Assembly (NCBI GenBank): GCA_021203865.1
Contig: JAJQAJ010000075.1
Coordinates: 1 to 46,689 of the forward strand
Source: Clostridia bacterium
Lineage (GTDB): Bacteria; Bacillota; Clostridia; Christensenellales; Borkfalkiaceae
Direction of reading: 5' to 3'
DNA: 46,689 bases
Shown here in pieces: positions 23,279 through 43,095 of this stretch (position 1 is the stretch's first letter; each line of letters begins with the position of its first letter). Both the position numbers and the translations under genes were made by a program. Under the pieces are notes generated by a model, which did not search any database, was not told the DNA's origin, and saw only the letters and a program-made list of their open reading frames with translations.

Positions 23279-23307
23279 CCGTCCCGCGATATGAGCGGGG
23301 CGGTTTT
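23279..23307 (+). terminator. terminator after pnp
   Basis: CCGTCCCGC/GCGGGGCGG, 9 bp with one G-U pair, loop GATATGA, followed by TTTT. It marks the border between core genes and the accessory region. Confidence 0.8.
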
Positions 23308-23335
23308 GAAAATATCTGAAAATGATGTGGACGTT

Positions 23336-25865: not shown

Positions 25866-28280
25866 ATGAAAAAGACGGTATCCTCATTTCTGAAGGCCGT
25901 GGCGGCGGCAGTTATCGTGCTCGCGACAGTTCTCGGATGCTGCTCGTTCCTTGCGGGGTGCAAAAGCAAAAACAAAAAGAACGTCAAAACCGCCGAGCTT
26001 TATGGCATGGACATATATTATCTTTCCTCCGGAACGATAGATTTCGACTCCATATCCCTGTACGTCACTTATGACGACGGGACGAGCGAGACCATGACCC
26101 GGAAGGAGTACGACATAAAGGACAAGAACGCCGCGGATGGCACCGAGTTCATACTCAACACGGACGGACTTTATGACGCCGTGCAGGGCGCTTTGAGAAC
26201 GGGCTCCGACATACAGAAGGGAAACTACGACATATCGTTTTCCATTCCCGATTATAGATACAGCAAAGATTTTGAAACCGTGACGGTGGGCGATGACCCT
26301 GTCTCCGACCTTCTGGTCGTGTACTATGACGAACCCGAATTTTTGTCCACATACGAATACCGGGCAGGTGAGGCCGAGGACCGACCGAACGACGAGGATA
26401 CATATTACATCGTTCCCGAAAACTACACGGTGGGCGATGACAACGCGTTCATTTTTAAACCGGAGCTCTATGTCTACAACTCGGACACCAAGGCGTATGG
26501 GACGTTTTATGGCTATGAGCCTGAAATTTCGGTTTCATTCGCGTCGGAAGGCACGAACCTTGACATTGACGAGTGTGTCTCGACGGACGGTTTCGATATA
26601 AATTTCACGGAAGAAGCGATTGGCGGCGAGTTTGAAATTATAGTGGCTCCCCCAGAAGGTTTTGAACCTCTTTATGGAAGCGACGAACTTTCTAATTTTT
26701 CCATGCGCGTCACCGTTGCCGACGGATGGAACGTCTATTCCGCCAAGGACCTTGGCATGATGAACATTGTGTCCAATACGTTCAATAGAGAAGATTTCTG
26801 GATAACTAACGAGACGGGCGAAAGGTCAGATTACAACCAGCAGCTTTGGACGAGTTTTTGGGACGAAGAAAAAGAGGATATGACGGAAAAGAACACGGAC
26901 GAAATCTGGGACGAGTTTTTGACCGAAAACGGATACGAGACCAGACCCGTGAACGGAATATACCTTCACGGCGACATCTCGATTACTGAAAAAGACATCC
27001 CCGAAGACTTCGTGGTAACGAGGTCCGAAGCGCGTCATTACGGATGCGATTATGACGAGATGATAGACTCCGTCCGCGATGGTGTCAAACTCTACGAAAA
27101 ATACATGGAGGACGACTTCACGTTTGACGGCAATCTTTTCACCGTCGACTGCTCGTCTTTAAAATGGGCGATGACCTACATCGACTCCAACGGAAATTTT
27201 GACCATTACACGGAGCAGAAAACCGATGTTTACAGAGGCGGGAGGCTTTCCGTCTTCGCCGTGCAGGGCGTGACGGACATGGAAACAGAAGAGCGTCCCA
27301 CCGCGACTTTTGAAAATCTCGGCGGAAGGGGAAACGCCATAGACATGAATGACACCGAGGGCAAGGAAGGCGGAAGTTTTTGCTTCATAGAATCTCTGAG
27401 CTCTGAGACCATCATAGATAACTGCCACGCGAAAAACTTCCTCTACGGTTTCAAGGGCATGGACTCGGATGACTCTTATGTCAACCTCAAAATTACGGAC
27501 ACCAAAGTTTACGACAACTATTTCAGCTCCATGAGGATTGTGCGGTCTGCGCGTAACGAGGTATACCACTCTGAGTTCAAACGTTTCAGCGGCCCCGGGG
27601 TGTTCCAGATAAGCGAAGCGGAGGAAAGAGCAAAAAAGTATAGCGGTTACTACGAGACGGGGCTTTTCGTTTCCGAGGATTCGACGCTTGAAAGCCCGAT
27701 ATCGGGGAGCGAGGCGTGGTTTGTTAGCTCCAACGCGACCTCCATCGCGTCGTACATAACCATGGCCGATAGCCTCATACAGGCTTGCAGTAACGACACG
27801 AAGACAATCATCAACGAGGACGGGAAGATGAACCTCATGGTCTTCCTCCAGGACACTGACGATTTTGGCTGGTATCAAGGAAAAATGAACTCGCGCTACC
27901 AGCGCGAGGGGAGTGTTCCGTTCATTTTGAATGAAGAAACTGAGGTGGAAGATCTTACAGAAACATCGACGGACGAGGATGTGGCCCTCCGCAACGCCGC
28001 CGCGATGAATTATTTCGTGGACGGGGTTGCGGACGGGAGTATCACACCCATCCCGGCGACCTTCTCGACAAACCAAGGGACGCTGGTTGCGATAGATAAT
28101 TTATATCAGGGATTCTATGACCCCGCGGCTCTTCGCGAAAACGAGGGTGAAGCGCTTGGAGAGGAGTACGAGCTGTCCTTCGACGAGGGCGACAACGAAA
28201 TCTATGTCTACTACCGCATGGACGGCGCTATGAAAGGCACATATCTTTCTCTCATAGTGTCACTTCTCGACATCACCTGA
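25866..28280 (+). CDS. surface lipoprotein B, Ig-like plus beta-helix family
   Basis: The 804-residue protein is a paralogue of A. The signal peptide ends in LAG-Cys32; an earlier VLG-Cys25 would also fit a lipobox. The Ig-like region begins YGMDIYYLSSGTIDFDS. The middle part keeps VGDDNAFIFKPEL and VADGWNVYSAKDLG. The core block has NGIYLHGDISIT, IPEDFVVT, YDEMIDSVRDG and DGNLFTVDCSSLKW. The likely beta-helix region has IDNCHAKNFLYGFKG and VYDNYFSSMRIVRS. A short acidic C-terminal strand pair follows (DNEIYVYYRMDG). With A and C it forms one subgroup (GLDIYYL or GMDIYYL near the N-terminus). It has its own promoter and terminator. The function is unknown. Confidence 0.82.
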   Translation: MKKTVSSFLKAVAAAVIVLATVLGCCSFLAGCKSKNKKNVKTAELYGMDIYYLSSGTIDFDSISLYVTYDDGTSETMTRKEYDIKDKNAADGTEFILNTDGLYDAVQGALRTGSDIQKGNYDISFSIPDYRYSKDFETVTVGDDPVSDLLVVYYDEPEFLSTYEYRAGEAEDRPNDEDTYYIVPENYTVGDDNAFIFKPELYVYNSDTKAYGTFYGYEPEISVSFASEGTNLDIDECVSTDGFDINFTEEAIGGEFEIIVAPPEGFEPLYGSDELSNFSMRVTVADGWNVYSAKDLGMMNIVSNTFNREDFWITNETGERSDYNQQLWTSFWDEEKEDMTEKNTDEIWDEFLTENGYETRPVNGIYLHGDISITEKDIPEDFVVTRSEARHYGCDYDEMIDSVRDGVKLYEKYMEDDFTFDGNLFTVDCSSLKWAMTYIDSNGNFDHYTEQKTDVYRGGRLSVFAVQGVTDMETEERPTATFENLGGRGNAIDMNDTEGKEGGSFCFIESLSSETIIDNCHAKNFLYGFKGMDSDDSYVNLKITDTKVYDNYFSSMRIVRSARNEVYHSEFKRFSGPGVFQISEAEERAKKYSGYYETGLFVSEDSTLESPISGSEAWFVSSNATSIASYITMADSLIQACSNDTKTIINEDGKMNLMVFLQDTDDFGWYQGKMNSRYQREGSVPFILNEETEVEDLTETSTDEDVALRNAAAMNYFVDGVADGSITPIPATFSTNQGTLVAIDNLYQGFYDPAALRENEGEALGEEYELSFDEGDNEIYVYYRMDGAMKGTYLSLIVSLLDIT

Positions 28281-28401: not shown

Positions 28402-28465
28402 TTTGTCATAAAATTACATGACAAAATATGAAATTGTCATTTATGATGATTACAGGAGGGCCTGG

Positions 28466-30859
28466 ATGAGAAAGAAAATCACTCGCGCTGCGGGACTTTG
28501 TGCGTCATGCGCTTTCATTTTGTCTGCGCTTTGGGGAAGCGGGATCGTGTTTTCCGCCTGCAAAACGAAGACGAACATATCCAAGGCGGAGATTTTGGGA
28601 CTTGACATATACTATCTTCCGGAAAGCGAAATAGACTTTGACGCCGTCACTCTTTTTGTGACATATGACGACGGAAGCACGGAGACTTTGAAAAACAAAG
28701 AGTATGACATATCCGACAAAGACGCGGCGGAAGGCACTGAGTTCATCGTGTCGACATCCGGCCTTTACTTAGAGAACGCGAAGGAAGGTGATATGAAGGA
28801 GGGAGATTACAAAATAACCTTCTCCGTTCCTTCGCAAAAGTACAGCGGTGTGTCTGAGACAGTGACGGTGGGGAAAAATTACGCGAAAGACCTCGAAGCC
28901 GTTGATTACGAAGACCCGGAGTTTTTGTCGGTTTACAAGTTCAGGGCGGGAGAGAGCGAGAAAAGACCGAATGACGAGGACGCGTTCTTTGAGGTTCCGG
29001 AGGAATATTTCGTAGGTGACGACAACGGATTCGAGTTCAAACCCGAGTTTTACGTCTACAACCCCGCGACGAAGGCTTACGGGAAGTTTTCCGGATATGA
29101 GACAGAAATGACAGTCACGCTTAGGGATGAGGGGACGGGGCTTGACGTCTCTGAGCTTTGCTCGTGCGACGGTTTCATTGTCGATTTCACCGAAAAGGCG
29201 GTGGGACACAAATTCACGATATCCCTGACCTCGCCCGCGGGCATGACGCCGCTCTACGGCGGGGACTTTCCCGACATTTCCATGGACGTCATGGTGGGTG
29301 ACGGCTGGAATGTCACGACGGTGGAGGACCTCGGACGCATGGCGCTTGTTTCCGACACCTTCAACCGCCAGGATTTCGTCAACGGCGACGACGAAAAATC
29401 GGTGGAGGGCGGCGCGCCCGCAAAAATTTACTGGGACGGCGCGAGCGGACACACGGCGAAATACACGAGCGACATATGGAGAGAATATCTTGAAGCTTTG
29501 GGTTTTAGAGACCTTTCTCCCGTGAACGGCATATATCTACACGGCGATTTGGCGATAACTGAAAGTGACCTTCCGGAAGATTTTCTTGTGTCCGAGGCGG
29601 AGGCGAGACATTACGGAGTGAACTATGACGACATGGTGGGTTCGATTCGAGACGGCGTGAGGATTTTTGAAAAAAACGTCGAGGAGGATTTCACGTTCAG
29701 CGGGAATCTTTTCAGCATAGACTGCTCGTCGCTCAAGTGGAGTCTCACACACCTTGACTCAGATTTCAGTCTCACATATTATGGTGAGAACGCGACCTCC
29801 TACAGGGAGAGTAGCGTGACGGTTTTCTCTTTCCAGGGCCTTACCTCGAGATACGCAAACGTCAGGGCGACGGTGACCATGGAGAATCTCTCAGCCGTGG
29901 GAAACGGCATAGACGTGAACGATACGGAAGGCAGGGCGGCGGGCTCCGTGCGGTTCGTCGAATCGAGAAGCTCGGTGACAAAGGTGAGAAACTGCAGGGT
30001 GCGTGAATTTCTTTCCGGATTCTCGGCGAAAAACTCGGACGATAGCTATGTCAACCTCGACATAGATAGAACGAAAGTGCATGATTGCTACAACTTCGCG
30101 CTGATAGTCACAAAGTCCGCCTCGAATAATGTGACAAACTCCGAATTTTTAAGATTCAGCTGCCCCGCGGTGACGCTCATGAGTGACACCTCGGAAAATG
30201 AACTGTCCCCGCATTCCTATTCAAAGGCGGGACTCACAGTGGATGAAAACACCCGGATAGAGAGCGCGCTGAACGGCACGGAGGCATGGTGGGTTGCGAA
30301 CGGCGCGAGCTCCGTCGCGGGATATGTTTCCTACGCCGACTCATGGGTCGTGGGACCGTGCACGAATTACACGAAGACCATTTTGAATGAAGACGGGAAA
30401 CTCAACATGCTGGCGGTGTTCCAGGACGGCGAATATTTCGGCCAGGGTTCGACAAAGCTCAACACATATTTCAAACAGGGCGACGGCGTGCCGTACATTC
30501 TAAATGAAACCGTCTGGGACAGTTCCATGGGCTCGCGCTCGGAAATCGCGTCGGCGGAAGAACTCGCTTTTTTCAATGCGGCCGCGACGAATTATTACGT
30601 TGACAGCATCGCGAAGGACACCCTTCTTCCCATTCCCTTAACTTTCATGACAAACACCGGAAAGCTCTGCGCGGCGTCGACGACGCTGAACTCTTTTCTG
30701 GACCCTCTTTCCTTTCAGTTTGAAAGTAGAGCTTACGGAGACCAAGACAGGATTGTCTTTGACGAAGACGATGGCTGGCTCTACATGTTTTACAGGATGG
30801 ACAGCGTGGGGTCGGACGGTGTGGGCCTCAGCATCATAATAGAGCTCTACGACGCGTGA
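28466..30859 (+). CDS. surface lipoprotein C, Ig-like plus beta-helix family
   Basis: This is a 797-residue paralogue of A and B. I use ATG 28466 because AGGAGG (28454-28459) precedes it and the product then begins with a normal signal peptide (MRKK, lipobox FSA-Cys32); an ATG at 28418 would add 16 charged residues. The Ig-like region starts LGLDIYYLPESEIDFDA. The core block includes NGIYLHGDLAIT, LPEDFLVS, YDDMVGSIRDG and SGNLFSIDCSSLKW. The beta-helix-like part has VRNCRVREFLSGFSA and VHDCYNFALIV. I see no terminator behind it, so some transcripts could run into the transporter genes, although a promoter lies between. The function is unknown. Confidence 0.82.
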   Translation: MRKKITRAAGLCASCAFILSALWGSGIVFSACKTKTNISKAEILGLDIYYLPESEIDFDAVTLFVTYDDGSTETLKNKEYDISDKDAAEGTEFIVSTSGLYLENAKEGDMKEGDYKITFSVPSQKYSGVSETVTVGKNYAKDLEAVDYEDPEFLSVYKFRAGESEKRPNDEDAFFEVPEEYFVGDDNGFEFKPEFYVYNPATKAYGKFSGYETEMTVTLRDEGTGLDVSELCSCDGFIVDFTEKAVGHKFTISLTSPAGMTPLYGGDFPDISMDVMVGDGWNVTTVEDLGRMALVSDTFNRQDFVNGDDEKSVEGGAPAKIYWDGASGHTAKYTSDIWREYLEALGFRDLSPVNGIYLHGDLAITESDLPEDFLVSEAEARHYGVNYDDMVGSIRDGVRIFEKNVEEDFTFSGNLFSIDCSSLKWSLTHLDSDFSLTYYGENATSYRESSVTVFSFQGLTSRYANVRATVTMENLSAVGNGIDVNDTEGRAAGSVRFVESRSSVTKVRNCRVREFLSGFSAKNSDDSYVNLDIDRTKVHDCYNFALIVTKSASNNVTNSEFLRFSCPAVTLMSDTSENELSPHSYSKAGLTVDENTRIESALNGTEAWWVANGASSVAGYVSYADSWVVGPCTNYTKTILNEDGKLNMLAVFQDGEYFGQGSTKLNTYFKQGDGVPYILNETVWDSSMGSRSEIASAEELAFFNAAATNYYVDSIAKDTLLPIPLTFMTNTGKLCAASTTLNSFLDPLSFQFESRAYGDQDRIVFDEDDGWLYMFYRMDSVGSDGVGLSIIIELYDA

Positions 30860-30908: not shown

Positions 30909-30947
30909 ATACATTGATAAATGATTTGCAAGCAAAAATCAATGTAT
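30909..30947. repeat. 10-bp inverted repeat around the -35 of the transporter promoter
   Basis: ATACATTGAT (30909-30918) and ATCAATGTAT (30938-30947) are perfect reverse complements separated by 19 bases. The -35 lies in the gap and the right arm ends two bases before the -10, as expected for a repressor operator. It is the longest perfect AT-rich dyad I noticed at a promoter in this window. Confidence 0.65.
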
Positions 30948-30955
30948 GGTATCAT
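30926..30955 (+). promoter_or_regulatory. promoter of the transporter operon
   Basis: -35 TTGCAA (30926-30931), 18-base spacer, extended -10 TGG-TATCAT (-10 at 30950-30955). Transcription would start near 30962, about 80 bases ahead of the first gene. Confidence 0.7.
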
Positions 30956-31041: not shown

Positions 31042-33255
31042 ATGAACTATTTGGTTTGTTTAGGGACGATAGTCCTCATAGCGTGCATATATCTCATATT
31101 CCGAAGGTTCTTTGAAAAGCACATGTCCCTCACTTTGAAGGTGTTTGCGCTTGTTTTGGCCGCGGTCTTTTTGGCGCGCTACACGGTGAGCTCGAAGTCG
31201 GTCTTCGACGTTTCGGCCGCGCTTTCAGAAAGCGGCCCGGAGGACATTTCGACGTGCCTTTCCTACATAACGCTCTTCGCTGTGTGGCTGGAGCTTTCGT
31301 CGCTTCTCGTGGTGTGCCTCTATCCCTTTTTCCCGGGTGAGAGCGTTTTTAAGAACTACGCGAAAACTTTCGCGCTCATTTCGGCGTTCATAAACTTCGG
31401 ACTTTTGAGATGGACCACCTATTCGTTTGAGGGAGTGTATCTCGACGACACCCTCACGGCGGGCGCCGTGCTTTTGGCGGTTGAGGTGGGGATGGTACTT
31501 TGTCTCTCACTTCACGCGCTCTCATACGGCGGAGGTTTCCACATAACGAGAAAAGAGGGTGTGAGGATGGCGAGGTTTTTGCCTGTCCTCTTGTTCTCGG
31601 CGATGATGCCGTACATGTTCAGCGGCGTCCTCGGAAACTTCGGATACACCCATTCCATGGGATTTGACACCTACCACAGGGGATACATCTATTTCACGCT
31701 CCTTCTTTTGGTCGCGGCCGTCTTCTGCTTCATCAAGTGCGACAAAGAGTTCATACGAGTGAGCCTTCTTTTCGCGTCGCTCGGCGCGCTCATATCGTTT
31801 TGGTACCAATACGACTACACGACGTTTTCCGATTTCGGGTCATGGCCGCTGCATCTTTGCTCGCTCATGATGATGGCAGTGCCTCTGTGTCTCATATTCC
31901 GCTGGCAGTGGCTTTTCGACTTCGTGCTTCTTTTCGGGGTGGGGGCGGCGCTCATAGGCATACTCCTTCCCGTCTACGAAAACTCGTACGGCGCCCTTTC
32001 GACGGACACGGTTACCTACTGGCTTTCCATGGTGGTCTCCTTCGACTTTCCCATCCTCATGTGCTTCTACGGGATATACAGGACGCCGAAACTCAGAGAG
32101 GGACTTTGGTGCCTTTTCGCCTTTTTCGTCTACTTCGCGGCGGTGGTCATTGCGAGTGCGTTCATGTCGGCGGACGGCGAGATTGTGGACTTCTTCTTCG
32201 TGTCGAGCACGGTGCTTTCCGACAAGCTCGGAAGCGTCGGCTCAGGGCTTTACGGCGTGGAATTTACCGTGGGACGGGCAGCGTTCCAGCCTCTCTACGA
32301 GCTCGTCTGGTTCGTCGTGTACGGCGTGATAGGTGTGCTTTTGTATTTCTTCTATCAAATGCTCGTGGGTCTCAAAGACATGTATGTCGGGATATACGAG
32401 AGGCAGAGGGAGATAAAGCTCGAGGAATACGCGTTTTTCGAGGAACGCGGAAACATGAAAACAACAGGAGAATTTATGAACGGCGAATCTGTTGACAAGC
32501 TTGTAGTCAAAAATCTGTACAAAAGGTACGGCTCTTCCAAGCGCTACGCCGTGACCGACGCCTCTTTCGAGGTTAAAGCCGGCGAGATTTTAGGATTTTT
32601 AGGCCACAACGGGGCGGGAAAGAGCAGCATAATAAAATGCATCGTCGGAATCCAGCCTCCGACCGCGGGTTCGATTGAAATAAACGGCTACGACGTTTCC
32701 AAGCAGTCCGTCGAGGCGAAGATGCAGGTAGGGTTCGTGCCTGACCACTACGCGCTCTACGAAAAGCTCACCGGAAGGGAGTACATAAACTACGTCGCGG
32801 ACCTCTACAACGTCTCTAAAGAGGACAGGGACGAGAGGATGGAGGATCTTTTGGAAAAGCTAAGCATGGGGGACGCCATAGACTCTCCCATACAGACATA
32901 TTCCCACGGCATGAAACAAAAGACCGCCATAATGTCCGCCCTTATCCACAACCCTAAACTTTGGATACTCGACGAGCCTTTGACGGGCCTTGACCCCACG
33001 TCCATATACCAGGTCAAGCAGTGCATGATAGACCACGCCGCGAAGGGGAACATAGTCTTTTTCTCGTCGCACCTCATTGACATTGTCGAAAAACTCTGCA
33101 CGAGGATAATAATGATAAAGCGCGGCCACATCATGGTCGAAAACACGATGGACGAGCTCATGGAAAATAACGTCGACCTCGAACAGTACTATCTTGACGT
33201 TTCATCCCGTCCAATCGAGGGCGAGGATGAGGACCCCTCTGAGGTCATGGCATAG
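31042..33255 (+). CDS. TMEM164/YwaF-like membrane domain fused to an ABC ATPase, copy 1
   Basis: Residues about 1-460 of 737 are polytopic, with roughly 13 hydrophobic segments. After a gap of charged residues, residues about 484-715 form an ABC ATPase: Walker A GHNGAGKS (521-528), signature YSHGMKQK (about 620-627), Walker B WILDEPLTGLDP and H-loop SSHL. The membrane half contains WPLHLC (Trp268-Cys273), which reminds me of the YwaF/TMEM164 family; that link needs a profile search. I use ATG 31042 because it aligns exactly with the start of copy 2; in-frame GTG 30961 would lie at the transcription start. AGGAG at 32466-32470 and an in-frame ATG at 32476 sit exactly before the ATPase domain. 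The permease gene follows after 25 bases. Confidence 0.85.
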   Translation: MNYLVCLGTIVLIACIYLIFRRFFEKHMSLTLKVFALVLAAVFLARYTVSSKSVFDVSAALSESGPEDISTCLSYITLFAVWLELSSLLVVCLYPFFPGESVFKNYAKTFALISAFINFGLLRWTTYSFEGVYLDDTLTAGAVLLAVEVGMVLCLSLHALSYGGGFHITRKEGVRMARFLPVLLFSAMMPYMFSGVLGNFGYTHSMGFDTYHRGYIYFTLLLLVAAVFCFIKCDKEFIRVSLLFASLGALISFWYQYDYTTFSDFGSWPLHLCSLMMMAVPLCLIFRWQWLFDFVLLFGVGAALIGILLPVYENSYGALSTDTVTYWLSMVVSFDFPILMCFYGIYRTPKLREGLWCLFAFFVYFAAVVIASAFMSADGEIVDFFFVSSTVLSDKLGSVGSGLYGVEFTVGRAAFQPLYELVWFVVYGVIGVLLYFFYQMLVGLKDMYVGIYERQREIKLEEYAFFEERGNMKTTGEFMNGESVDKLVVKNLYKRYGSSKRYAVTDASFEVKAGEILGFLGHNGAGKSSIIKCIVGIQPPTAGSIEINGYDVSKQSVEAKMQVGFVPDHYALYEKLTGREYINYVADLYNVSKEDRDERMEDLLEKLSMGDAIDSPIQTYSHGMKQKTAIMSALIHNPKLWILDEPLTGLDPTSIYQVKQCMIDHAAKGNIVFFSSHLIDIVEKLCTRIIMIKRGHIMVENTMDELMENNVDLEQYYLDVSSRPIEGEDEDPSEVMA

Positions 33256-33280
33256 AATTTTAAGGAAAGAGCGGGAAGAC

Positions 33281-34933
33281 ATGGCTACATTCAAGACACT
33301 CTTCATGATGCAAATTAAAGAGAAGTTCGACTGGTCTTTTCTCAAAAGCCCGAAGCAGATAGCCTACAAGGTCATAATGGCCATTTTGGGCTTCGCGGTC
33401 ATAACCGCGTTCGTCTACTTCGTCCTTTGGTTTTGCCAGTACATGCACATCTTCTCGCCGCTCGACTACACACCGCTTTCCGTCATGGCGGTGCTCTTCC
33501 TCATTCTTTTTATATTCACTTTGGCGACCTGCACGGTGTCTCTTAGCCGCGAGCTTTATAGAAGCCGGGACAACCAGATACTCTTAACATATCCCGTGTC
33601 CTCCAACATGGTGTTCCTTTCAAAGATGCTGGTGTGCTTCATAAACGAGGTAAAGAGGACCTTCTATTTCCTCATGCCCGTCTTCATAGCGTACGCCATA
33701 CTCGCGAAACTTATCTGGGTCGCGTACATCTGGATACCCGTCATGCTGATTGTCATGACCGTTTTCACGGTCGTGTTCGCTGGATTTCTGTCACTTCCCA
33801 TAAACTACGTCGCGTGGTTTTTCAGAAAACATGCGAGCGTCAGGATAACGACCGTGGCCGTCCTCATAGCGGCCCTCATCGGCGTGATAATATACATAAT
33901 CACCCTCATTCCCAGCAGCATAAACTTCGTTTCCAGCTGGTCGAGGGTTTCGGAAATAATATCGAACTTCCTCAACTGGTTCACCAAGAATTTCTACGGC
34001 TGCTACGCGTTCGTGTCGTTCCTCTGCGGAAAGTCCTACCAGCTTTCGGTGACGTTCTTCTCGGAGTTTTCATATCTCGTCCTCATATGTCTTCTGGGGC
34101 TCATAGCTATTTTCGCGGCTCTGGACGTTTGGATCTCGAGAAAGGCCTACACAAAGGTCATTCAGAGGGAGTTTGAGTTCGACAAAAAGGTGGTGAAGGA
34201 GAAAAAGCCGAACGTCAAACGCTCGCGCTTCTTCTCAACGTTCTTTTATGACGGCAAGAGGATGCTCCTCGACAGTTCCATTCTGACCTCGCTGATATCC
34301 GTCATCGTCGTGACGCCGATAGTCGTCCTTTTACTTAACGTCGTCTTCTCGGCGATAAGGACGCGTCTTATAGGCCAGCACCTCGTCGTAATGTTCAACA
34401 TCCTCATCATCCTTCTTTTCGCGATGTCATCGAACGTCTGGGTGTCGTCGATATACAGCCGGGACGGCAACGCCCTCACCCTTGAAAAGACCAAGCCGAA
34501 CAAGACGTTCAACATTCTTTTCACGAGACTTATGCTAAGTTTCGTCTCGTCGCTTCTCGTTGTTCTGCCATCCTCGATAATTTTCATCTACAACGCAGGT
34601 GTAGGCGTTCTCGACGGATTTCTCATAATCCTGATAGAGCTTCTCATGGTGTACAGTCACCTTCTTTGGAGCGCTGAGATAGATTTTCTGCATCCGAGAA
34701 TAGAACTCTACCAGACCGCGGGCACGGCCGCGAGAAATCCAAACGAGACGAAGTCGATGATTTTGTCATTTGTCCTTAGCATCGTGACGGCGCTTTTGGT
34801 TTTCCTCTTTTTGCAGGTCACACCTAAACTTGAGTATCTTAGGGTCCTTCCCTTCGTCCTCATTTTCGCGGGATACAGGGTGGTGTCTTTTAGATACAAA
34901 TCAGAACTTTTCCTGGAGGAGAAGAAATTATGA
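33281..34933 (+). CDS. ABC-2-type exporter permease, copy 1
   Basis: The 550-residue polytopic membrane protein has about twelve hydrophobic segments in two blocks, separated by a charged cytoplasmic loop (about residues 290-325, with FEFDKKVVKEKK). Length and layout resemble the putative ABC exporter permeases that pair with a separate ATPase. Recognisable shared pieces with copy 2 are TFKTLFMMQIKEK at the start, FYFLMP and SSNVWVSSIYSRDG. I use ATG 33281; an in-frame ATG at 33194 lies within the upstream gene and gives an unlikely hydrophilic leader. The natural partner is the ATPase domain encoded just before. The stop overlaps the next start as ATGA. Confidence 0.83.
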   Translation: MATFKTLFMMQIKEKFDWSFLKSPKQIAYKVIMAILGFAVITAFVYFVLWFCQYMHIFSPLDYTPLSVMAVLFLILFIFTLATCTVSLSRELYRSRDNQILLTYPVSSNMVFLSKMLVCFINEVKRTFYFLMPVFIAYAILAKLIWVAYIWIPVMLIVMTVFTVVFAGFLSLPINYVAWFFRKHASVRITTVAVLIAALIGVIIYIITLIPSSINFVSSWSRVSEIISNFLNWFTKNFYGCYAFVSFLCGKSYQLSVTFFSEFSYLVLICLLGLIAIFAALDVWISRKAYTKVIQREFEFDKKVVKEKKPNVKRSRFFSTFFYDGKRMLLDSSILTSLISVIVVTPIVVLLLNVVFSAIRTRLIGQHLVVMFNILIILLFAMSSNVWVSSIYSRDGNALTLEKTKPNKTFNILFTRLMLSFVSSLLVVLPSSIIFIYNAGVGVLDGFLIILIELLMVYSHLLWSAEIDFLHPRIELYQTAGTAARNPNETKSMILSFVLSIVTALLVFLFLQVTPKLEYLRVLPFVLIFAGYRVVSFRYKSELFLEEKKL

Positions 34934-35334
34934 AAAAAGCCTCGCTTTTTGTCGTGGCGGTCGTGTGCGTTCTCGCCATAGTCATAATAACATTCTTCGG
35001 CCAGGCTGTGGAGATGGGTCAGTTCCACATTACTATCAACGAGATAACTATAACCAACGAGCAGAGCAGCGGCACCATCAGAATGAGCTATTCGGACAAC
35101 GTCGACGCTGACGGATATGCGTACGTGTATCTCCACTGCGAAATTTCGCCCGCTGAAGCGGATGACCCCAACGCATACAGATTTCAGCTCGATGGTGATG
35201 TTGACCCCGACATCGCGGGCATAACCGAGGACAGGGGCGTCGTATACTTTTCACAGCCCTACATGGTCACCGCGAGGGTGGTCGCCACCGACGGCGGGGG
35301 AGCGTGGACGACAGTCCGCATCTGGTGCAGCTAA
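34930..35334 (+). CDS. small membrane-anchored outside protein, copy 1
   Basis: The 134-residue protein has one N-terminal membrane segment (about residues 4-23, MKKASLFVVAVVCVLAIVII) without a lipobox. A beta-rich outside domain follows (QFHITINEITITNE, then YAYVYLHCEIS and a last strand WTTVRIWC). It overlaps the permease gene by four bases, so the two are translationally coupled. The counterpart in unit 2 is 39294-39710. I do not recognise the family. A job as outside partner or substrate guide of the exporter is inferred from its fixed position only. Confidence 0.78.
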   Translation: MKKASLFVVAVVCVLAIVIITFFGQAVEMGQFHITINEITITNEQSSGTIRMSYSDNVDADGYAYVYLHCEISPAEADDPNAYRFQLDGDVDPDIAGITEDRGVVYFSQPYMVTARVVATDGGGAWTTVRIWCS

Positions 35335-35357
35335 AAAAACTTTTTTGGGTCGCGCTC

Positions 35358-37637
35358 ATGGTTTATGTGATATCTGCTGGGACGATAGCCCTTTTAATCG
35401 CACTCTATTTTCTTTTCCGCAGGTTCATTGAGGCCCACGCGCGCCTTTTTCTCAAAATCTTCGCGGTTTTGATTCTCGCGCTCTTCGCCGTCCGCTATTA
35501 CGCCTCGTCGGGTTCGCTTTTGGAAGGTGTCCACGCACTCTCGGACAACCCCTTTTACGGTGAGAATGCGGGGTGGTTTTCTTCTAAGGCGTTTTCAAAC
35601 GTCTTTATGGTGCTCGTGACCGTAGACGTCTGGATGGAGATTGCGAGTGTGCTCGTCGTCTTTGTCTTCCCGTTTTTCAAAAAAGGGAATGTCTTCGAAA
35701 ACGTCGCCAGATCTTTTACACTCATATTTTCAGTTATCAACATTGCACTCCTCAGGTGGACGTCGTATTCCTACACAGGATCATACGGCCTTGATGTGTG
35801 CAGTGTTTTCATGTCCGTAGAATCGGCGTTTGTCTTTTGCGTCTGCCTTTATTCGGCCTGCAAATCGGGGCTTAAACTTAAGAAAAATGAGTTTTTGGGC
35901 GTCATGTACGTCGTTCCCGCGATGATAGTTTTCACAATGATGCCCTGGACTTTGGAGGAGCTTTTCGGGAACTTCGGCTACGCGCACGTGACTCGCTTCA
36001 ACGCCTTCCACAGGGGTTACATCTACGCGGGAATCGTCTTTGTCATCGTCATGTACTTCTACCTTAGAAATAAAGACAGGGAGTACATCCGCATGATGCT
36101 TCTGTACATCTCCCTCGCGGCGGTGGTGACGTACTGCTCTAAATACGACTACACATCGCTATACACGGTCTCGGAGTGGCCGCTGCACCTTTGCAACACG
36201 ATAATGTTCATAGTGCCGCTTTGTCTCATGTTCAAATTCGACTGGCTCTTCTATTTCGCGCTCTTTTTCGGTGTTCTGGGAGCTTTCGTCGCGATGCTCA
36301 TTCCGACATACGAGCGCTCCATGGGCGTATTTTCACCCGAGGTCATATCCTATTGGCAAAACCACATCTTGGCCTTCGGGATTCCGCTCACGATGCTTTT
36401 CACGGGTGTCTACCAGCGCCCGAAACTCAAACACTTCTTCTATTCGCTCGTGGGCTTCGCAGTGTATTTCCTTCTAGTCATAATTTTGAACTCGTACCTC
36501 AACACCGACTTTTTCTACACGAACAAAGACCAGATAACCTCTCTTTTAGGGTCCTTTGGGATAAGGCTGAAAGAGTTTACTCTGACATTCGAGCTTCCCA
36601 ACAGCACGCTTACCTATTATCCTTTGTATCAAATTCTCTTTTTTGTCATATACGTACTTGTCGCGTTCCTCGTGTGGTTCGTCTACGCGTACATATTCAA
36701 AATACAGGACCACTACCGGCACGTCGAGGGAAGACGCCGTGAGATAAAGGCGGAGGAGTACGCCGCGTGCGTGGCCTCGGGAGTCGCGTCGCTCGGCGCG
36801 TACCAGAATGAGGAGACTAAGGGCAAGATAGTCCTTGACGGCGTATATAAAAGATACGGGGAAAACGAGTTCTATTCCGCGGCGGACGTCTCTTTTGAGG
36901 TGCACGATGGCGAGGTGATAGCTTTCCTCGGCCACAACGGGGCCGGGAAGAGCACGATAATAAAGAGCATTGTGGGGATTCACCCCTTGACCAAAGGCAA
37001 AATCGAGGTCAACGGCTATGACGTTTCCACTCAGCCCGTCGAGGCGAAAGCGGAGATTGGGTTTGTGCCCGACCACTACGCGCTCTTTGAAAGACTGACT
37101 GGGCGAGAGTACATAAATCATATGGCGGACCTCTACGGCGTCTCGGAAGATGAGAGAAACAAAAGGATTTCCGAACTTTGCGGAAAGTTCAGGATGGAGG
37201 ACTCGATTGACTCCAAAATTCAGACCTATTCCCACGGCATGAAGCAAAAGGTGGCCATAATGGCGGCGCTCATACACGACCCCAAGGTTCTCATTTTAGA
37301 CGAGCCTTTGACGGGGCTTGACCCTGCGTCTGTGTACGAGGTGAAAGAGTGCCTTCGCGAGCACGCCCAAAAGGGGAACATAGTCTTTTTCTCGACGCAT
37401 TTAATCGACGTTGTCGAAAAGCTTTGCACGAGAGTGATAATAATAAAGGGCGGGGTCATCCAGGCTTCACGCGAGATGGCAGAGTTGGCAAAAGAAGGTG
37501 TCGACCTCGAAAAGTATTTTCTTGAGGTCGGCGAGGGAGCCGACGGGGACATAAAGCGCGTTCCCGTCGAAAAAGAAGAAAAAGGGGAGGAGGAGCTCGA
37601 TTTCCTCTTCCGGAAGAAGGTTAAAATTAATCGATAG
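35358..37637 (+). CDS. TMEM164/YwaF-like membrane domain fused to an ABC ATPase, copy 2
   Basis: The 759-residue paralogue of copy 1 has the membrane half at about 1-470 and the ABC ATPase at about 489-725: Walker A GHNGAGKS (525-532), signature YSHGMKQK, Walker B LILDEPLTGLDP, H-loop STHL. WPLHLC is conserved with Cys279 and His277. It ends in a longer charged tail (VEKEEKGEEELDF). I use ATG 35358 because MVYVISAGTIALL aligns residue by residue with the start of copy 1; an in-frame GTG at 35304 lies inside the preceding gene. As in copy 1 there is no good ribosome site. The internal ribosome site and Met before the ATPase domain of copy 1 are absent here. Confidence 0.85.
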   Translation: MVYVISAGTIALLIALYFLFRRFIEAHARLFLKIFAVLILALFAVRYYASSGSLLEGVHALSDNPFYGENAGWFSSKAFSNVFMVLVTVDVWMEIASVLVVFVFPFFKKGNVFENVARSFTLIFSVINIALLRWTSYSYTGSYGLDVCSVFMSVESAFVFCVCLYSACKSGLKLKKNEFLGVMYVVPAMIVFTMMPWTLEELFGNFGYAHVTRFNAFHRGYIYAGIVFVIVMYFYLRNKDREYIRMMLLYISLAAVVTYCSKYDYTSLYTVSEWPLHLCNTIMFIVPLCLMFKFDWLFYFALFFGVLGAFVAMLIPTYERSMGVFSPEVISYWQNHILAFGIPLTMLFTGVYQRPKLKHFFYSLVGFAVYFLLVIILNSYLNTDFFYTNKDQITSLLGSFGIRLKEFTLTFELPNSTLTYYPLYQILFFVIYVLVAFLVWFVYAYIFKIQDHYRHVEGRRREIKAEEYAACVASGVASLGAYQNEETKGKIVLDGVYKRYGENEFYSAADVSFEVHDGEVIAFLGHNGAGKSTIIKSIVGIHPLTKGKIEVNGYDVSTQPVEAKAEIGFVPDHYALFERLTGREYINHMADLYGVSEDERNKRISELCGKFRMEDSIDSKIQTYSHGMKQKVAIMAALIHDPKVLILDEPLTGLDPASVYEVKECLREHAQKGNIVFFSTHLIDVVEKLCTRVIIIKGGVIQASREMAELAKEGVDLEKYFLEVGEGADGDIKRVPVEKEEKGEEELDFLFRKKVKINR

Positions 37638-37642
37638 GAAAC

Positions 37643-39289
37643 ATGGGCGCGTTTAGGACACTTTTCATGATGCAGCTTAAGGAGAAGATAGACTTCTCGT
37701 CCGCCAACAGCCTTAGAAAGCTGATTTTTAAGGCTGTTTTCGCCGTGGTCACTTTTTTGGCAGTCATGGCGATAGCGTACGTCGTCTACTTCGTTTGCAT
37801 CTATCTTCGTCTCTTCTCGCCCCTTGACCATCTTCCCGTCAGCGTCATGTCGGTCGTCTTTCTGCTTCTTTTGGTCTTTTCGCTCGTGACATGCACGATA
37901 ACTCTCTCGAAGACACTCTTTCTAAGCAAAGACAACCAGTTTCTCATGACCTTCCCCGTGCACGCGAGCACGGTCTACCTTTCAAAGGTGTGCGTGTCAT
38001 TCGTTTATGAAATACGCCGGACGTTCTATTTCCTCATGCCGATATTTTTCGCCTACGCGATAATATCGGGACTTCCGTGGTTTTCGTATTTTTGGATAAC
38101 ATTCATGCTTATCCTTTTCACGGGCCTCATGGTGGTTTTTGCGGCTTTTCTGGCGTTCCCCATAAACTACATCGTGCAGTTTTTCAAAAAGAACAGAACG
38201 GCGAGGTATGTGGGCGTCATAATTCTTCTCGCGGGAGTGGTCGCTCTCGTCGTCTGGCTCATAGGTCTCATTCCCGCGGACATAAACCTTATTCGAAGCT
38301 GGTCCAAAATATCCCAGTATCTCACACAGTTTCTCAACTGGTTCACGAAGGGATTCTATTTCTGCTACGCCTTCGTCATGTGTCTTTGCGGCAGCGACGC
38401 CTCGTATTCGACGAAATTTTTTGACAGCAACACCTGGATTGTCCTCGCCGTGGTGGTGGGAGGGATAATTCTCTTCGCTTTGATAAACATGGTGATCTCC
38501 CGCTACGCCTACGCGAAAACCGCCGACAAACAGTACGAGTTTAACAAAAAACAGTCCGTGAGGGACAAGAGGAACAGAAGAATGTCAAAGACCGCCTCGT
38601 CCCTTTATTACGACTCAAAGAGGATGCTCTCCGAAAACAACCTCCTTTCCGCTTCGATAGCGGTCATAATAATAACGCCGCTTTGCACGCTCCTTCTGAA
38701 CGCCGTCTTCGCGGCGATAAGCAAGAGGGTGGTGGGTGATTATCTCGCTATCTCGTTCAACATTTTGGTAATACTTCTTTTCGCGACCTCATCCAATGTT
38801 TGGGTGTCCTCCATATACAGTCGTGACGGGGAGTCGCTCGCCGTGCACAAGACGAAGCCGGTGAAGTCCTTCCCCGCGCTTTTTGAAAAACTGTTCGTGA
38901 GCATGCTCTCGACGGTCCTTGTGGTGGTCCCCGCGTCAGTGATATTTTTGGTTGAGGCGGACATGGGCGCCCTCGATTCGGTGCTCATCATCCTGACAGA
39001 GCTCGCTGTGGCGTTCGGACATCTCTTTTGGAGCGCCGAGATTGACTTCATGAACCCAAAACCCCAGGTTTACAGCACTTCCGGGGCCGCGGGCGTCAAC
39101 CCCAACGAGGTCAAATCCATAGCGCTTTCATTCTTTTTGTCGATAATAACGATGGGCGTCTTTTTGTTCTTCTTAATGTATGACGCGTCGTACGTCTACA
39201 TAAGGGTGTTCATTCTGGCGGCGATATTCGTTGCCTACCGCCTGATAGTTTTCAAATTCAAGTCGAGAGTCATGTACGAGGAGATGTGA
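37643..39289 (+). CDS. ABC-2-type exporter permease, copy 2
   Basis: This 548-residue polytopic protein is homologous to copy 1 over its whole length: start MGAFRTLFMMQLKEK, middle FYFLMPIFFAYAI, basic loop with FNKKQSVRDKRNRR, and SSNVWVSSIYSRDG. The motif LLxSKDNQFLMTFPV near residue 95 matches RSRDNQILLTYPV of copy 1, a shared intracellular element. It starts five bases after the fusion gene with AGGAAA as ribosome site, and ends four bases before the next gene. It presumably pairs with the ATPase of the second fusion. Confidence 0.83.
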   Translation: MGAFRTLFMMQLKEKIDFSSANSLRKLIFKAVFAVVTFLAVMAIAYVVYFVCIYLRLFSPLDHLPVSVMSVVFLLLLVFSLVTCTITLSKTLFLSKDNQFLMTFPVHASTVYLSKVCVSFVYEIRRTFYFLMPIFFAYAIISGLPWFSYFWITFMLILFTGLMVVFAAFLAFPINYIVQFFKKNRTARYVGVIILLAGVVALVVWLIGLIPADINLIRSWSKISQYLTQFLNWFTKGFYFCYAFVMCLCGSDASYSTKFFDSNTWIVLAVVVGGIILFALINMVISRYAYAKTADKQYEFNKKQSVRDKRNRRMSKTASSLYYDSKRMLSENNLLSASIAVIIITPLCTLLLNAVFAAISKRVVGDYLAISFNILVILLFATSSNVWVSSIYSRDGESLAVHKTKPVKSFPALFEKLFVSMLSTVLVVVPASVIFLVEADMGALDSVLIILTELAVAFGHLFWSAEIDFMNPKPQVYSTSGAAGVNPNEVKSIALSFFLSIITMGVFLFFLMYDASYVYIRVFILAAIFVAYRLIVFKFKSRVMYEEM

Positions 39290-39293
39290 TGTC

Positions 39294-39710
39294 ATGAAAA
39301 AAGCTTCCGCCTTTCTTATCGTCATAGTTTTGATAATGTCCGTCGTCGTGATATCGTTCTTTGGTAAATCCATCGCCGTGGGACAGTACCAGACATATTT
39401 CTCAGACATCTGGTTCACGAACGAAAAGGACGCCAACAACACGATTTACATCGAATTCGATGAGGCACAGGGCTATGGCACGGTCTTTCTCGAATACGAA
39501 TATCTTCCTGCGGACGTCGATTATCCCGATAAGGTTGCGTTCTCTCTTTCCAACGACACCTATACGGATGAAAACGGAGAAACACAGTACAAGGCTGAAT
39601 TTGTGAGACCCGGCTATCTCGTCTTCAACATGACGGGGGCTGTGCACGCATACATCCGCACGACCGACGGCTCCACCAAATCCGACGACGTGACTGTCGT
39701 CTGCTACTGA
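39294..39710 (+). CDS. small membrane-anchored outside protein, copy 2
   Basis: The 138-residue protein begins MKKASAFLIVIVLIMSVVVI, closely matching the anchor of copy 1, and continues ISFFGKSIAVGQYQ (copy 1: ITFFGQAVEMGQFH). The outside domain has little identity with copy 1 but keeps its size, beta character and a Cys at the second-last position (copy 1 WCS, copy 2 VCY). The ribosome site GAGGAG lies at the end of the permease gene. It is the last gene of the probable six-gene transcript. Confidence 0.78.
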   Translation: MKKASAFLIVIVLIMSVVVISFFGKSIAVGQYQTYFSDIWFTNEKDANNTIYIEFDEAQGYGTVFLEYEYLPADVDYPDKVAFSLSNDTYTDENGETQYKAEFVRPGYLVFNMTGAVHAYIRTTDGSTKSDDVTVVCY

Positions 39711-39747
39711 CCTTTTTTTGCTCAATTTTTTTTTATTGTTTTATCTG

Positions 39748-39771
39748 AACTCGGCTCCCAGGTCGAGTTTT
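39748..39771 (+). terminator. possible terminator of the transporter operon
   Basis: AACTCG/CGAGTT, 6 bp, loop of ten, followed by TTTACG. It lies 38 bases after the last stop, with long T runs before it (39712-39740). Weak alone; the hairpin at 39885 is stronger. Confidence 0.45.
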
Positions 39772-39884: not shown

Positions 39885-39912
39885 GCCGAGACTAATTGTC
39901 TCGGCTATTTTT
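39885..39912 (+). terminator. intrinsic terminator in the intergenic block
   Basis: GCCGAGAC/GTCTCGGC, perfect 8-bp stem, loop TAATT, then TATTTTT. It is 175 bases after the last transporter gene, so it either ends a long 3' UTR or a separate small transcript from 39772-39884, a stretch where I see no gene. Confidence 0.8.
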
Positions 39913-39961
39913 ATGAGTGCGATTTTTGACGAAACCATTTATCTTTTGCCGGACATGCGGA

Positions 39962-40488: not shown

Positions 40489-43095
40489 TTGCACATGAGA
40501 GAATATGGAAAGAACACGCTTAAAACCGTCGTCGCCGTAGCACTGGCGGGGGTGATTGTATGTGGCTGCGGAGTCTTGTGGTCGTGCAAGGGCGAGGAAA
40601 AAACCGAGTCTTCTGAAAGGAAGATATCTTCCGTCGCGACGAGTGGCTTCGACCACTTTTACACGCCGGGAAGCGAGATTGACCTGGAATCCCTTTCCGT
40701 CGTCATAACTTATTCGGACAAGTCCACAAAGACGCTTACGGAAAAGCTCATAGACGTCGACGCGGAAGAGCCGATAGAGGTGGAGACGGAAGATGAGGGC
40801 ATAGTCGAACCCGCCGAAACTGAAACGGATGAAACATACGCGGACGAAAAAGACGCGGAGACCACGGACGACGGGGACGAGGAGGAAGAGACTTCTGAGG
40901 AGGAGGTCACAAAGAGCATCTTTGACGACGGAGCCGAGTTCATACTCTACACGGACGGCCTTTACGAGGAACTGACATTAGGCCATAACGCGGAAGGTGA
41001 ATATTCGTTTTCATGTCTTCTCGCCGAGGACATGGAAATCTACGATTTGGGAACAGTATACATAGGGGATGACATCACCTATTTCAACGTCACACTTTTT
41101 GAAGAGCCCGCTTTCGTGACCGAGTACAAGGCAAACCTTGAGCGTACCGGTGATAAGGATGACGACAACGATTTTGTAAAAGCGGTGGACGAGTACTGTG
41201 TGGGTGACGACAACGGCTTTGTATTCACGCCCAAGCTCACTTTATCCGACCCCGGCAACGTCAAACTCTCATTTGAGCAGAGCGTTTACAATGTGGACGT
41301 CGCCGTGTACAGGGATGAGAGCGATGAGGGAGAACCATTGAACCTTTCCGACAACCTCTATGTCTCATATTCGGATTTCACCTTCGATTTCACGGACGAG
41401 GCGGTGGGTGAGTATTTTACGATACAGATGACACTCACGGATTTCGATCGCGATTTTTCCGGAACGCCGATTGAGCCTGTCACGATGACCGTCAAGGTCA
41501 TGGACGGCTGGAATGTCTACACCGCACTGGACCTCGGACACATGAGCCTTGTCGACTCTGACCCCGGATCCAGCAATTACATTGAGCGGTTGACGAAGCC
41601 GGTCTTCTGGAACGGTTCAACAAGCAACAATCAGGTGTGCGCCTTCGACATATGGAAAGATTTTCTCGATGAGAAGGGAGAGGATAAAAACACTCTCAAA
41701 TCGACCAACGGTATTTATCTTCAAAACAACATAGAAGTGACGATGGACGACATCCCGGAAGATTTCTTCATCGGGGAGGATGAAGCCACAAAGAACGGCG
41801 TCAATTATCCCGACATGGTGGGATGCATTCGGGATGATGCTTTCCCTTACACGCACTACATGACTGACGACTTCACACTCAACGGGAATTTATTCAAAAT
41901 AGACTGCTCGACGATAAAATACGGGCTCACCACGAGGACTTCAAGTGGGCTCAAATACTATGCCGAGGGCAACACCGCGGTCAACACGTCAAATTCGGCG
42001 CTCATATCCTTCTTGGGTGAGAAGGACACCACGACAGACTGGTCGCGCGTGGATGACGCCCAAAGACATATCGCCACGGTGGAAAACGTCGAACTTGTCG
42101 GAAACGTCTCCAACCCCGGATACTCGGTAAGCGGCAAGGAGAACGGCATGGCGGCGGGAAGTTTGCAGGCGGTGCGCAGCGTGTGCTCAAAGCTTAAGAT
42201 GGACAACTGCATCTGCCGCGAGTTTGTCATGGCGGTCGACGTGGAGTCGACGAACTCCAATTATGTCGGACTTGACATGAAGGGTTCCAAGATTTTCGAT
42301 TGCTACAATTGCGCGGTCTATGAGGTCACCGCGGAAAACAACTATATCAGAAACTCGGTCTTCAAAAGAATAGGCGGGCCGATTGTCATGTCAAAGAGCA
42401 AAACTACTGACGACGGTGGTGATAACAGTTACGGATATTACTACAACTGCGGCATCGAGATAGACGACGACACCGTCATAGAAAACTATCTCGCGGGCGA
42501 CGAGGCTTGGTTTGTCAGTATGGACGTCACTTTCATCCCCGTCCTTTTGGGGTGGTTTGACGAGTTCTTTGAAAGAGTCGGGAAGACCATTTACACGGGA
42601 ATGTCGACGGCCGTCGGCGCAGACGGCGAGCAGGCCGGCTCTTCCGCCGTCAACGTCCAGTGGGTGGCGATTGATAACGGAGCGGGGAGCTCCTCGGACA
42701 CCTCTGAATATCTCAACTGCGATTTCAGAATAGGTGACACGGAGTATATGCTGAGTGAGGAAACTTATACGAAAACGTATCTTTCAGACCCGGAAAACTT
42801 CGCGTCTCAGGCGGAGTACATAGGTGCGCTTTCCAACTATTTCATGGATGAGTGCAACTACGCGTACATGCCGCTCGTCTTTTCGACGAACACCGGAAAA
42901 AGCTTCACGATAGCCTCTCAGACGATGTCGGGCGGGGATCCGTTCTATGATCTCGCGGCTTACGCTCTGGATAGCAAACTTGTGCCCGTAGAACTTACGG
43001 AGGAGGACACGGAGATGTTCCTCTACCTTTGGTTCGGGTCTATCCGCGGAGTTCTCGCGATGCCTTTGGGCGACGCCGTGACGGAGGAGACATAG
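40489..43095 (+). CDS. surface lipoprotein D, Ig-like plus beta-helix family with acidic insert
   Basis: This protein has about 868 residues. I place the start at TTG 40489, seven bases after AGGAG (40477-40481); ATG 40495, two codons on, is 13 bases from it and is the alternative. The lipobox is LWS-Cys. The Ig-like region begins TSGFDHFYTPGSEIDLES, followed by an insertion of about 50 residues made almost only of Glu, Asp and Thr (40756-40918) that no paralogue has. The core keeps VGDDNGFVFTPKL, MDGWNVYTALDLGH, NGIYLQNNIEVT, IPEDFFIG and NGNLFKIDCSTIKY. The beta-helix-like stretch has MDNCICREFVMAVD. With E it forms a second subgroup (SSVATS and FDHFYTP). The function is unknown. Confidence 0.82.
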   Translation: MHMREYGKNTLKTVVAVALAGVIVCGCGVLWSCKGEEKTESSERKISSVATSGFDHFYTPGSEIDLESLSVVITYSDKSTKTLTEKLIDVDAEEPIEVETEDEGIVEPAETETDETYADEKDAETTDDGDEEEETSEEEVTKSIFDDGAEFILYTDGLYEELTLGHNAEGEYSFSCLLAEDMEIYDLGTVYIGDDITYFNVTLFEEPAFVTEYKANLERTGDKDDDNDFVKAVDEYCVGDDNGFVFTPKLTLSDPGNVKLSFEQSVYNVDVAVYRDESDEGEPLNLSDNLYVSYSDFTFDFTDEAVGEYFTIQMTLTDFDRDFSGTPIEPVTMTVKVMDGWNVYTALDLGHMSLVDSDPGSSNYIERLTKPVFWNGSTSNNQVCAFDIWKDFLDEKGEDKNTLKSTNGIYLQNNIEVTMDDIPEDFFIGEDEATKNGVNYPDMVGCIRDDAFPYTHYMTDDFTLNGNLFKIDCSTIKYGLTTRTSSGLKYYAEGNTAVNTSNSALISFLGEKDTTTDWSRVDDAQRHIATVENVELVGNVSNPGYSVSGKENGMAAGSLQAVRSVCSKLKMDNCICREFVMAVDVESTNSNYVGLDMKGSKIFDCYNCAVYEVTAENNYIRNSVFKRIGGPIVMSKSKTTDDGGDNSYGYYYNCGIEIDDDTVIENYLAGDEAWFVSMDVTFIPVLLGWFDEFFERVGKTIYTGMSTAVGADGEQAGSSAVNVQWVAIDNGAGSSSDTSEYLNCDFRIGDTEYMLSEETYTKTYLSDPENFASQAEYIGALSNYFMDECNYAYMPLVFSTNTGKSFTIASQTMSGGDPFYDLAAYALDSKLVPVELTEEDTEMFLYLWFGSIRGVLAMPLGDAVTEET

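Follow-up and report, generated by a model that had tools for sequence, protein, structure and literature searches.

What might an ATP-binding cassette (ABC) ATPase gain from being built into the same chain as a membrane domain related to the acyltransferase TMEM164? The question is raised by a 46,689-nucleotide stretch of DNA, hereafter the window (contig JAJQAJ010000075.1, assembly GCA_021203865.1), from a Clostridia bacterium of the family Borkfalkiaceae, order Christensenellales, in which such a fusion occurs twice in tandem. Six open reading frames (ORFs) at positions 31042–39710, all on the + strand, follow the order fusion, permease, small protein, then fusion, permease, small protein, with spacings from a 4-base overlap up to 25 bases, as a first-pass annotation made from the sequence letters had described them. 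Judging from the conservation of the fused domain, its predicted topology and its gene neighbours, we tentatively favour the view that these genes encode parts of an envelope machine of four components, powered by ATP and carrying its own outward-facing lipid transacylase, a proposal to which we would give somewhat less than an even chance.

The fused protein and its Cys-His pair

In both fusions the membrane domain matches PF14808 (TMEM164) above the Pfam cut-off of 25 bits (51.4 bits for unit 1, or 58.5 bits in the genome-draw searches, and 81.3 bits for unit 2), which bears out the suggestion that the extra domain is TMEM164/YwaF-like. The ATPase, annotated as complete, is indeed so in both units, as it matches PF00005 with 111 and 110.1 bits (cut-off 25) and its Walker A, signature, Walker B and H-loop motifs are intact. 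The genes of the two units and their main matches are given below, residues of unit 2 being numbered from the GTG at 35349.

31042..33255, + strand: unit 1 fusion, 13-segment TMEM164-like domain and ABC ATPase, 737 amino acids (aa) (ORF, Pfam, topology)
31687..32322, + strand: unit 1 PF14808 (TMEM164) match, residues 216–427 (base positions computed from residue numbers)
32029–32031, + strand: unit 1 codon (computed) of Met330, which replaces the second His; Cys273 is kept
32554..32982, + strand: unit 1 ABC_tran (PF00005) match, with all four motifs
33281..34933, + strand: unit 1 permease, 550 aa, PF16949-like but under the cut-off (Pfam, relatives)
34930..35334, + strand: unit 1 small membrane-anchored protein, 134 aa, immunoglobulin (Ig)-like (Big_2) via longer relatives only
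35358..37637, + strand: unit 2 fusion, 13-segment TMEM164-like domain and ABC ATPase, from ATG 35358 (759 aa) or GTG 35349 (762 aa)
36024..36671, + strand: unit 2 PF14808 (TMEM164) match, residues 226–441
36192–36194 and 36363–36365, + strand: unit 2 codons (computed) of Cys282 and His339
36885..37310, + strand: unit 2 ABC_tran (PF00005) match (Pfam), ATPase motifs present
37643..39289, + strand: unit 2 permease, 548 aa, PF16949-like, over the cut-off in one scan and under it in another
39294..39710, + strand: unit 2 small membrane-anchored protein, 138 aa (ORF, relatives, one hydrophobic segment)

Thirteen transmembrane (TM) segments are predicted from an alignment of 59 fusions, in agreement with the roughly 13 hydrophobic segments counted at first pass; segment limits were drawn by hand from mean hydropathy, and loop charges were taken over the same alignment. 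The segments alternate according to the positive-inside rule, with Lys + Arg densities of 0.17–0.33 in inside loops and 0.02–0.11 in outside loops (the two-residue loop 302–303 is uninformative in this respect), and the resulting topology is N-out, C-in, with the Cys and the second His both placed at the outer face of the membrane. PF14808 spans approximately the last seven of the 13 segments in both fusions, and the TMEM164-like label therefore accounts for only about half of the domain. An internal duplication relating segments 1–6 to 7–13 was considered and found unsupported (hhalign probability 6.8%, E 0.0054, single comparison). A sequence search for solved relatives returned none for the 13-TM domain or the permease.

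The Cys and the His of the PLHLC motif are each present in 66/66 fusions, and the second His, which in unit 2 lies 57 residues after the Cys, in 65/66. Among 42 stand-alone TMEM164 proteins picked without motif selection (43 loci were tried, one of which had no match), the Cys occurs in 41 (one Ser), the second His in 41 (one gap), the pair in 40 and the motif His in 20, while seven 13-TM proteins without ATPase fusion have the Cys and second His in every case and the motif His in none. Because the motif His varies in the stand-alone proteins, the constant pair is formed by the Cys and the second His. Human TMEM164 is said to use C123 and H181, 58 residues apart. TMEM164 is described as a cysteine-dependent acyltransferase (a 2026 paper, PMC13276253) and a coenzyme A (CoA)-independent transacylase (a review, PMC11592020). 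With TMEM164/YwaF proteins (PF14808; TIGR02206, "TMEM164-related integral membrane acyltransferase"; ATGY superfamily) the fusions share PF14808, a PLHLC-type motif and the Cys-His pair, but they differ in their six extra preceding TM segments, their fused ABC ATPase and a TIGR02206 score below the cut-off. The first-pass annotation had proposed that the extra domain adds a second activity and, because the Cys-His pair is kept and predicted to lie outside, lipid chemistry appears to be the best reading of it, leaving that interpretation as a whole partly supported.

Unit 1 is the sole fusion of the 66 with another residue (Met) at the second His. Its conserved TMEM164 columns are altered at 9 of 27 positions, as are those of the relative L121, against two or fewer in every other fusion; the L121 domain is as diverged as that of unit 1, yet retains both Cys and second His. 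Of 94 conserved ATPase columns, 4 are altered in unit 1, 8 in unit 2 and 12 in L121. Compared with the outgroups L130 and L138, the TMEM164 region is 36–37% identical in unit 1 and 47% in unit 2, the ATPase 64–68% in unit 1 and 58–60% in unit 2, and the first six TM segments (30–31% vs 31–33%) show no gap between the units. The pattern looks like a domain-specific loss of constraint, leaving a dead transacylase with a live motor, and unit 1 is probably a pseudo-transacylase partner.

Some PF14808 proteins stand apart from the fusions. A stand-alone 13-TM TMEM164-like family (L137, L155, L156, L157 and L159; 476–515 aa) has PxQLC instead of PLHLC, and its genes have no adjoining gene of the fusion-ATPase family. 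Two of them adjoin genes for proteins of 334–347 aa (L137:8614-9618 and L157:7838-8881), the start of which looks, by eye, like that of an acyltransferase-3 membrane protein. PF14808 is also unusually expanded in G024, G281 and G304, genomes of 1.0–1.4 Mb with 8 or 9 matches each.

A four-gene module and its probable assembly

Profiles made from the window genes were run over the neighbourhoods of relatives, covering 59 fusions (57 fetched loci and the two in the window). Fusion, permease, small protein and a lipoprotein-family protein follow one another in this order on one strand in 51 of the 59 (50 in the first survey, and L143 once its locus had been extended, L205). Of the remaining eight, six are cut by contig ends, one is unit 1 of the window, which runs into unit 2, and the last is L121 (G234:C9), where a single 840-aa protein combines an anchored Ig part with a part that weakly resembles a beta-helix; this protein is unmatched by the lipoprotein profile and has a TM-like segment at its start, with no lipobox seen by eye. 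On these matches, the fourth regular part of the module is a large predicted lipoprotein, which was missed when the module was described as fusion, permease and small protein. Five such genes flank the units, each assigned by profile, lipobox and tree:

23291..25678, + strand: lipoprotein 1, upstream group of the fourth-gene family
25866..28280, + strand: lipoprotein 2, upstream group
28418..30859, + strand: lipoprotein 3, upstream group
40495..43095, + strand: lipoprotein 4, downstream group, fourth gene of unit 2
43275..45773, + strand: lipoprotein 5, downstream group

Members of the family measure 683–1616 aa, some being clipped by the ends of the fetched stretches, and the match in L136 is weak (E 2e-07). 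A lipobox was found with a permissive pattern, within the first 110 residues, in 49 of 54 members and by eye in four more. The own genome (1.68 Mb, 98 contigs, 95.4% complete) encodes Lgt; PF07187 (DUF1405, the LhaT family) is absent from the Pfam matches of both fusions and has no match in that genome. A Big_3 Ig domain is found in the lipoprotein relative L149 (30.4 bits, above the cut-off of 21.2) and falls below it in L057 (18.7 bits). Beta-helix matches in the family all lie under the curated cut-offs, with 15.7 bits for PF05048 (NosD; cut-off 23.6) in a window lipoprotein and at most 23.5 bits for PF13229 (cut-off 25.9) in the four of five window lipoproteins scanned (lipoprotein 4 left out), and a search for solved relatives of the lipoproteins gave a single match, at E 0.43. 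In the lipoprotein tree the upstream trio (support 98/98) stands apart from the downstream pair, which groups with the lipoprotein of a third copy of the module (100/99), the exporter of which is nearer to unit 2. Since the lipoprotein and exporter trees match, we infer that every exporter is paired with a lipoprotein set of its own.

The small proteins each have a single N-terminal hydrophobic segment. Pfam gives no Ig match in those of the window or in the short relatives L147 and L055; as only longer relatives score as Big_2 (84 bits in L154 and 24.2 bits in L121, cut-off 22.8), the Ig label is by family only. Against solved structures, a small protein weakly matched (best E 4.1e-05) regions within a glucanase, tail tube proteins and a surface protein, regions that we take to be Ig domains. 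For the permeases, PF16949 (ABC_tran_2, curated cut-off 25.7 bits) scored 19.3 and 22.3 bits in unit 1 and 15.3 and 33 bits in unit 2 in two scans, with 35.2 bits in L147 and 13.7 bits in L126 among relatives, and the length of 548–550 aa fits a single polypeptide with both membrane halves.

Near full-length fusions are found in 27/151 genomes of the family by row count and, among the rows listed for the genus, in 2/19 genomes (the own genome and G110). In a draw from the order, PF14808 occurs in an open frame of at least 660 aa in at least 36 of 297 genomes, from at least ten families (35 of the 36 were confirmed with an ATPase, G311 being left out). A draw from the phylum has PF14808 in 17 of 299 genomes, with no fusion in the other 298 and no PF14808 frame longer than 310 aa outside the own genome. 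By these counts, the fusion is an order-wide, patchy family and not a local feature, and its module keeps its parts together across the order. The permease profile matches more broadly, in 56 of the 299 phylum-draw genomes, own included. We read ten neighbourhoods among the other 55, all outside the order, and an ATPase gene adjoins the permease in all ten (one split in two frames, one cut by a contig end), and no neighbouring gene matches the profile of the small protein, the lipoprotein or the 13-TM domain. By profile and neighbourhood the ATPase-permease pair belongs to a widespread, PF16949-like two-gene ABC type, an affiliation of the exporter core that had not been anticipated.

Nine further loci from within the order were fetched for ATPases apart from full-length fusions. 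Five (L164, L165, L166, L168 and L169) combine an ATPase and a permease with a match to the small-protein profile and are without TMEM164; the small proteins of L166, L168 and L169 were scanned and all three score above the cut-off for Big_2, and the next gene has a lipobox-like start in L164, L165 and L169. L171 has ATPase, permease and two neighbouring proteins without an Ig match, and L172 is a bare ATPase-permease pair, also found just ahead of the L148 fusion. In L167 and L170, and in L154 from an earlier fetch, a separate 13-TM gene lies directly 5' of the ATPase gene and is followed by permease and Ig genes, the ATPase start of L154 being preceded by an AGGAG stretch. These separate genes are, by their position, a Rosetta-stone link to the fusion.

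An ATPase tree of 78 domains was built with 58 of the 59 fusions (L134, with a partial ATPase, was left out). All 58 fused ATPases form one group (98/92) with the core ATPases outside, and three unfused ATPases appear as sister to the fused ones (96/67, below the mark for strong support); long-branch warnings were given, naming L170 and L121 among others. In an unrooted tree of the 13-TM domain, for which 28 of the 59 fusions were used, the 13-TM proteins of unfused modules group with the stand-alone 13-TM proteins (100/99), so that the two trees point different ways on an unfused module as direct ancestor of the fusions. A single fusion event is well supported, because the 58 fused ATPases form one group in the ATPase tree. 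It looks as though the system was assembled in steps, from an ATPase-permease pair, with addition of the Ig protein and lipoprotein, then of a separate 13-TM gene, and finally one fusion.

The two units in the window were correctly described as a tandem duplication, but by identity and tree position the copies are old paralogues. Fusions 1 and 2 share 46–47% identity, and the own genome has the third copy, with all four genes, on another contig. Unit 1 branches outside a group of the ATPase tree (100/91) that unites unit 2 with the third copy and with the relative L059 (66% identity, a metagenome-assembled genome record), and the 13-TM tree gives the same grouping more weakly (81/51). A recent tandem duplication is ruled out by this identity and by the ATPase tree, and an assembly artefact by the third four-gene copy on another contig and by the occurrence of the fusion in other genomes.

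Candidate functions and rival explanations

In the envelope machine that we tentatively favour, two fusion chains would clamp one permease (ATPase2-permease1), the anchored protein and the lipoprotein would form the outside assembly, and the Cys of the TMEM164-like domain, assisted by the His, would accept an acyl chain removed from a phospholipid of the outer leaflet. The acyl chain could then be handed to an acceptor, either a membrane lipid or a lipid-anchored protein, presented or extracted by the ATP-driven permease. The first-pass annotation had suggested that the two units form a heteromeric machine. This is plausible, for a reason not given then: because the transacylase domain of unit 1, eroded and without its second His, is probably dead while its ATPase is conserved, a unit 1/unit 2 pair would be asymmetric, with one working acyl-transfer site. 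A bolder version, which we consider rather doubtful, is that the fusion represents a new class of ABC machines: covalent attachment of the ATPase to an outward-facing lipid transacylase would couple ATP hydrolysis to the transfer of acyl groups to lipids or lipoproteins beyond the membrane, and the asymmetric pair in this genome would have one working and one dead chain. The activity and substrate of the envelope machine are in any case inferred from sequence comparison.

The two-to-one arrangement follows the models of YthP2Q and EcsA2B, which have two ATPases with one permease polypeptide holding the whole membrane part (PMC11466899). These type V exporters differ in lacking a fused membrane domain, and beside the putatively similar pairs in the ten phylum neighbourhoods there is neither an anchored Ig protein nor a lipoprotein of the families seen here. 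The ATPase of the teichoic acid exporter TagGH is likewise fused to membrane and outside parts, but these are one helix and an outside domain, with no TMEM164 domain described.

We count in favour of the envelope machine the four-gene order in 51/59 fusions, the conservation of the Cys-His pair and its outer-face placement, the fused outside protein of L121, the separate 13-TM genes, the domain-specific change of unit 1, the agreement of the lipoprotein tree with the exporter tree and the family precedents of TMEM164 as a transacylase and of LhaT as an enzyme of the outer surface. Several observations weigh against it. The first six TM segments of both fusions have no Pfam or NCBIfam match, and of the two profiles put forward for checking the domain only PF14808 scored above its cut-off, the membrane domains reaching 54.9 and 32.4 bits against the 75 bits of NCBIfam TIGR02206. 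Comparison of the two permease halves with hhalign revealed no repeat (probability 1.7%), which leaves protein length and analogy as the grounds for the 2:1 stoichiometry. The patchy distribution indicates that the fusion system is not essential, and modules without TMEM164 also carry Ig-type proteins and lipoproteins, so that the lipoprotein is independent of the transacylase. Finally, in L043 a TM anchor replaces the lipobox of the fourth protein, though the fusion keeps both Cys and His.

The last two observations also bear on an explanation that we consider unlikely, namely that the 13-TM domain is a specific acyltransferase acting on the N-terminal Cys of the neighbouring lipoproteins, with the ABC part supplying or freeing the lipoprotein. 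The lipobox in the fourth gene product (49/54, and four by eye), the predicted outside position of the active-site residues and an own genome with Lgt and without a DUF1405 LhaT would fit such a role. So would the precedent of LhaT of Bacillus (YpjA, DUF1405), a lipoprotein N-acetyltransferase which acetylates lipoproteins on the outer surface and is placed by its authors in the ATGY superfamily (PMC12345273); LhaT differs from the fusions in being a single domain of six TM segments from another Pfam family. Besides the modules without TMEM164 and L043, the fused Ig protein of L121, with its TM-like start and no visible lipobox, argues against this explanation and, lipoproteins being widespread among bacteria, their proximity to a single locus proves little. 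We would judge equally improbable a lipid flippase that acylates its own cargo, in which a lysolipid or glycolipid would be moved outward by the permease and then completed by acyl transfer in the attached domain: the ATPase fusion would couple both steps, TMEM164 transfers acyl chains to lysophospholipids, and type V exporters include TagGH, whose ATPase carries a membrane helix and an outside domain in the same chain, but the regular anchored protein and large lipoprotein would be left unexplained.

Nor do we think it likely that the 13-TM domain has no catalytic role and serves as a scaffold or gate, docking the ATPase to the outside proteins of a machine that does mechanical work, as is reportedly the case for NosDFY, said to combine an ABC pair with an outside protein of beta-helix fold. 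This reading would fit the sister modules that lack the domain, the conserved unit 1 ATPase despite the lost His, and the weak matches of the fourth-gene family to beta-helix and NosD profiles; these matches are, however, all under their curated cut-offs, in which the module differs from NosDFY itself, and a scaffold would hardly account for a Cys in 66/66 and a His in 65/66 fusions that are likewise kept in stand-alone relatives. We know of no transacylase fusion in NosDFY. Least probable, in our opinion, is an ordinary EcsAB/YthPQ-type peptide exporter in which the fused domain and the proteins outside would serve immunity or regulation. The plain pairs found in 10/10 neighbourhoods outside the order speak for it, as does the need for EcsAB in the secretion of lipoprotein-leader peptides in S. 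aureus, but the conserved transacylase pair would have no explanation, and spacers of 25 bases or less leave no room for a peptide gene between the genes of a unit (the flanks were not searched for short genes). A defence system was also considered and found unsupported, since PADLOC matches were confined to the ATPase region of the fusions, with none in the permeases, small proteins or the two lipoproteins scanned.

If the envelope machine operates as proposed, energy-coupled acyl transfer on the outer face of the membrane would offer a new route for remodelling lipids or lipoproteins at a site that lacks acyl-CoA, and the gene set would point to a so far undescribed cell-envelope machine. 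The evolutionary ladder of pair, core, 13-TM partner and fusion, together with a natural dead-enzyme paralogue, would provide ready controls. Literature searches by family names found no paper on a TMEM164-ABC fusion architecture, which is weak evidence of absence as subscription papers were mostly outside reach; the bacterial TMEM164 family, for which no paper was found under family-name terms, thereby gains a genetic context suggesting partners.

Other features of the window

Two regulatory-type sites flank the units, each by consensus match only:

30926..30955, + strand: promoter-like site ahead of unit 1 (19 such sites in the region vs 10.2 expected by chance)
39885..39905, + strand: terminator-like hairpin after unit 2 (21 in the region vs 15.4 expected by chance)

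No riboswitch or other structured RNA was matched in the window at Rfam gathering scores, including the long intergenic stretch at 39711–40494, 5' of the downstream lipoproteins. No viral contigs were found. Elsewhere in the window, two adjacent ORFs (535 and 349 aa) without a Pfam match above the cut-off lie at 9253–11896, 3' of a radical S-adenosylmethionine (SAM) gene, and positions 18711–20456 encode an AAA-ATPase_like + PDDEXK_9 protein between radical SAM and polynucleotide phosphorylase genes.

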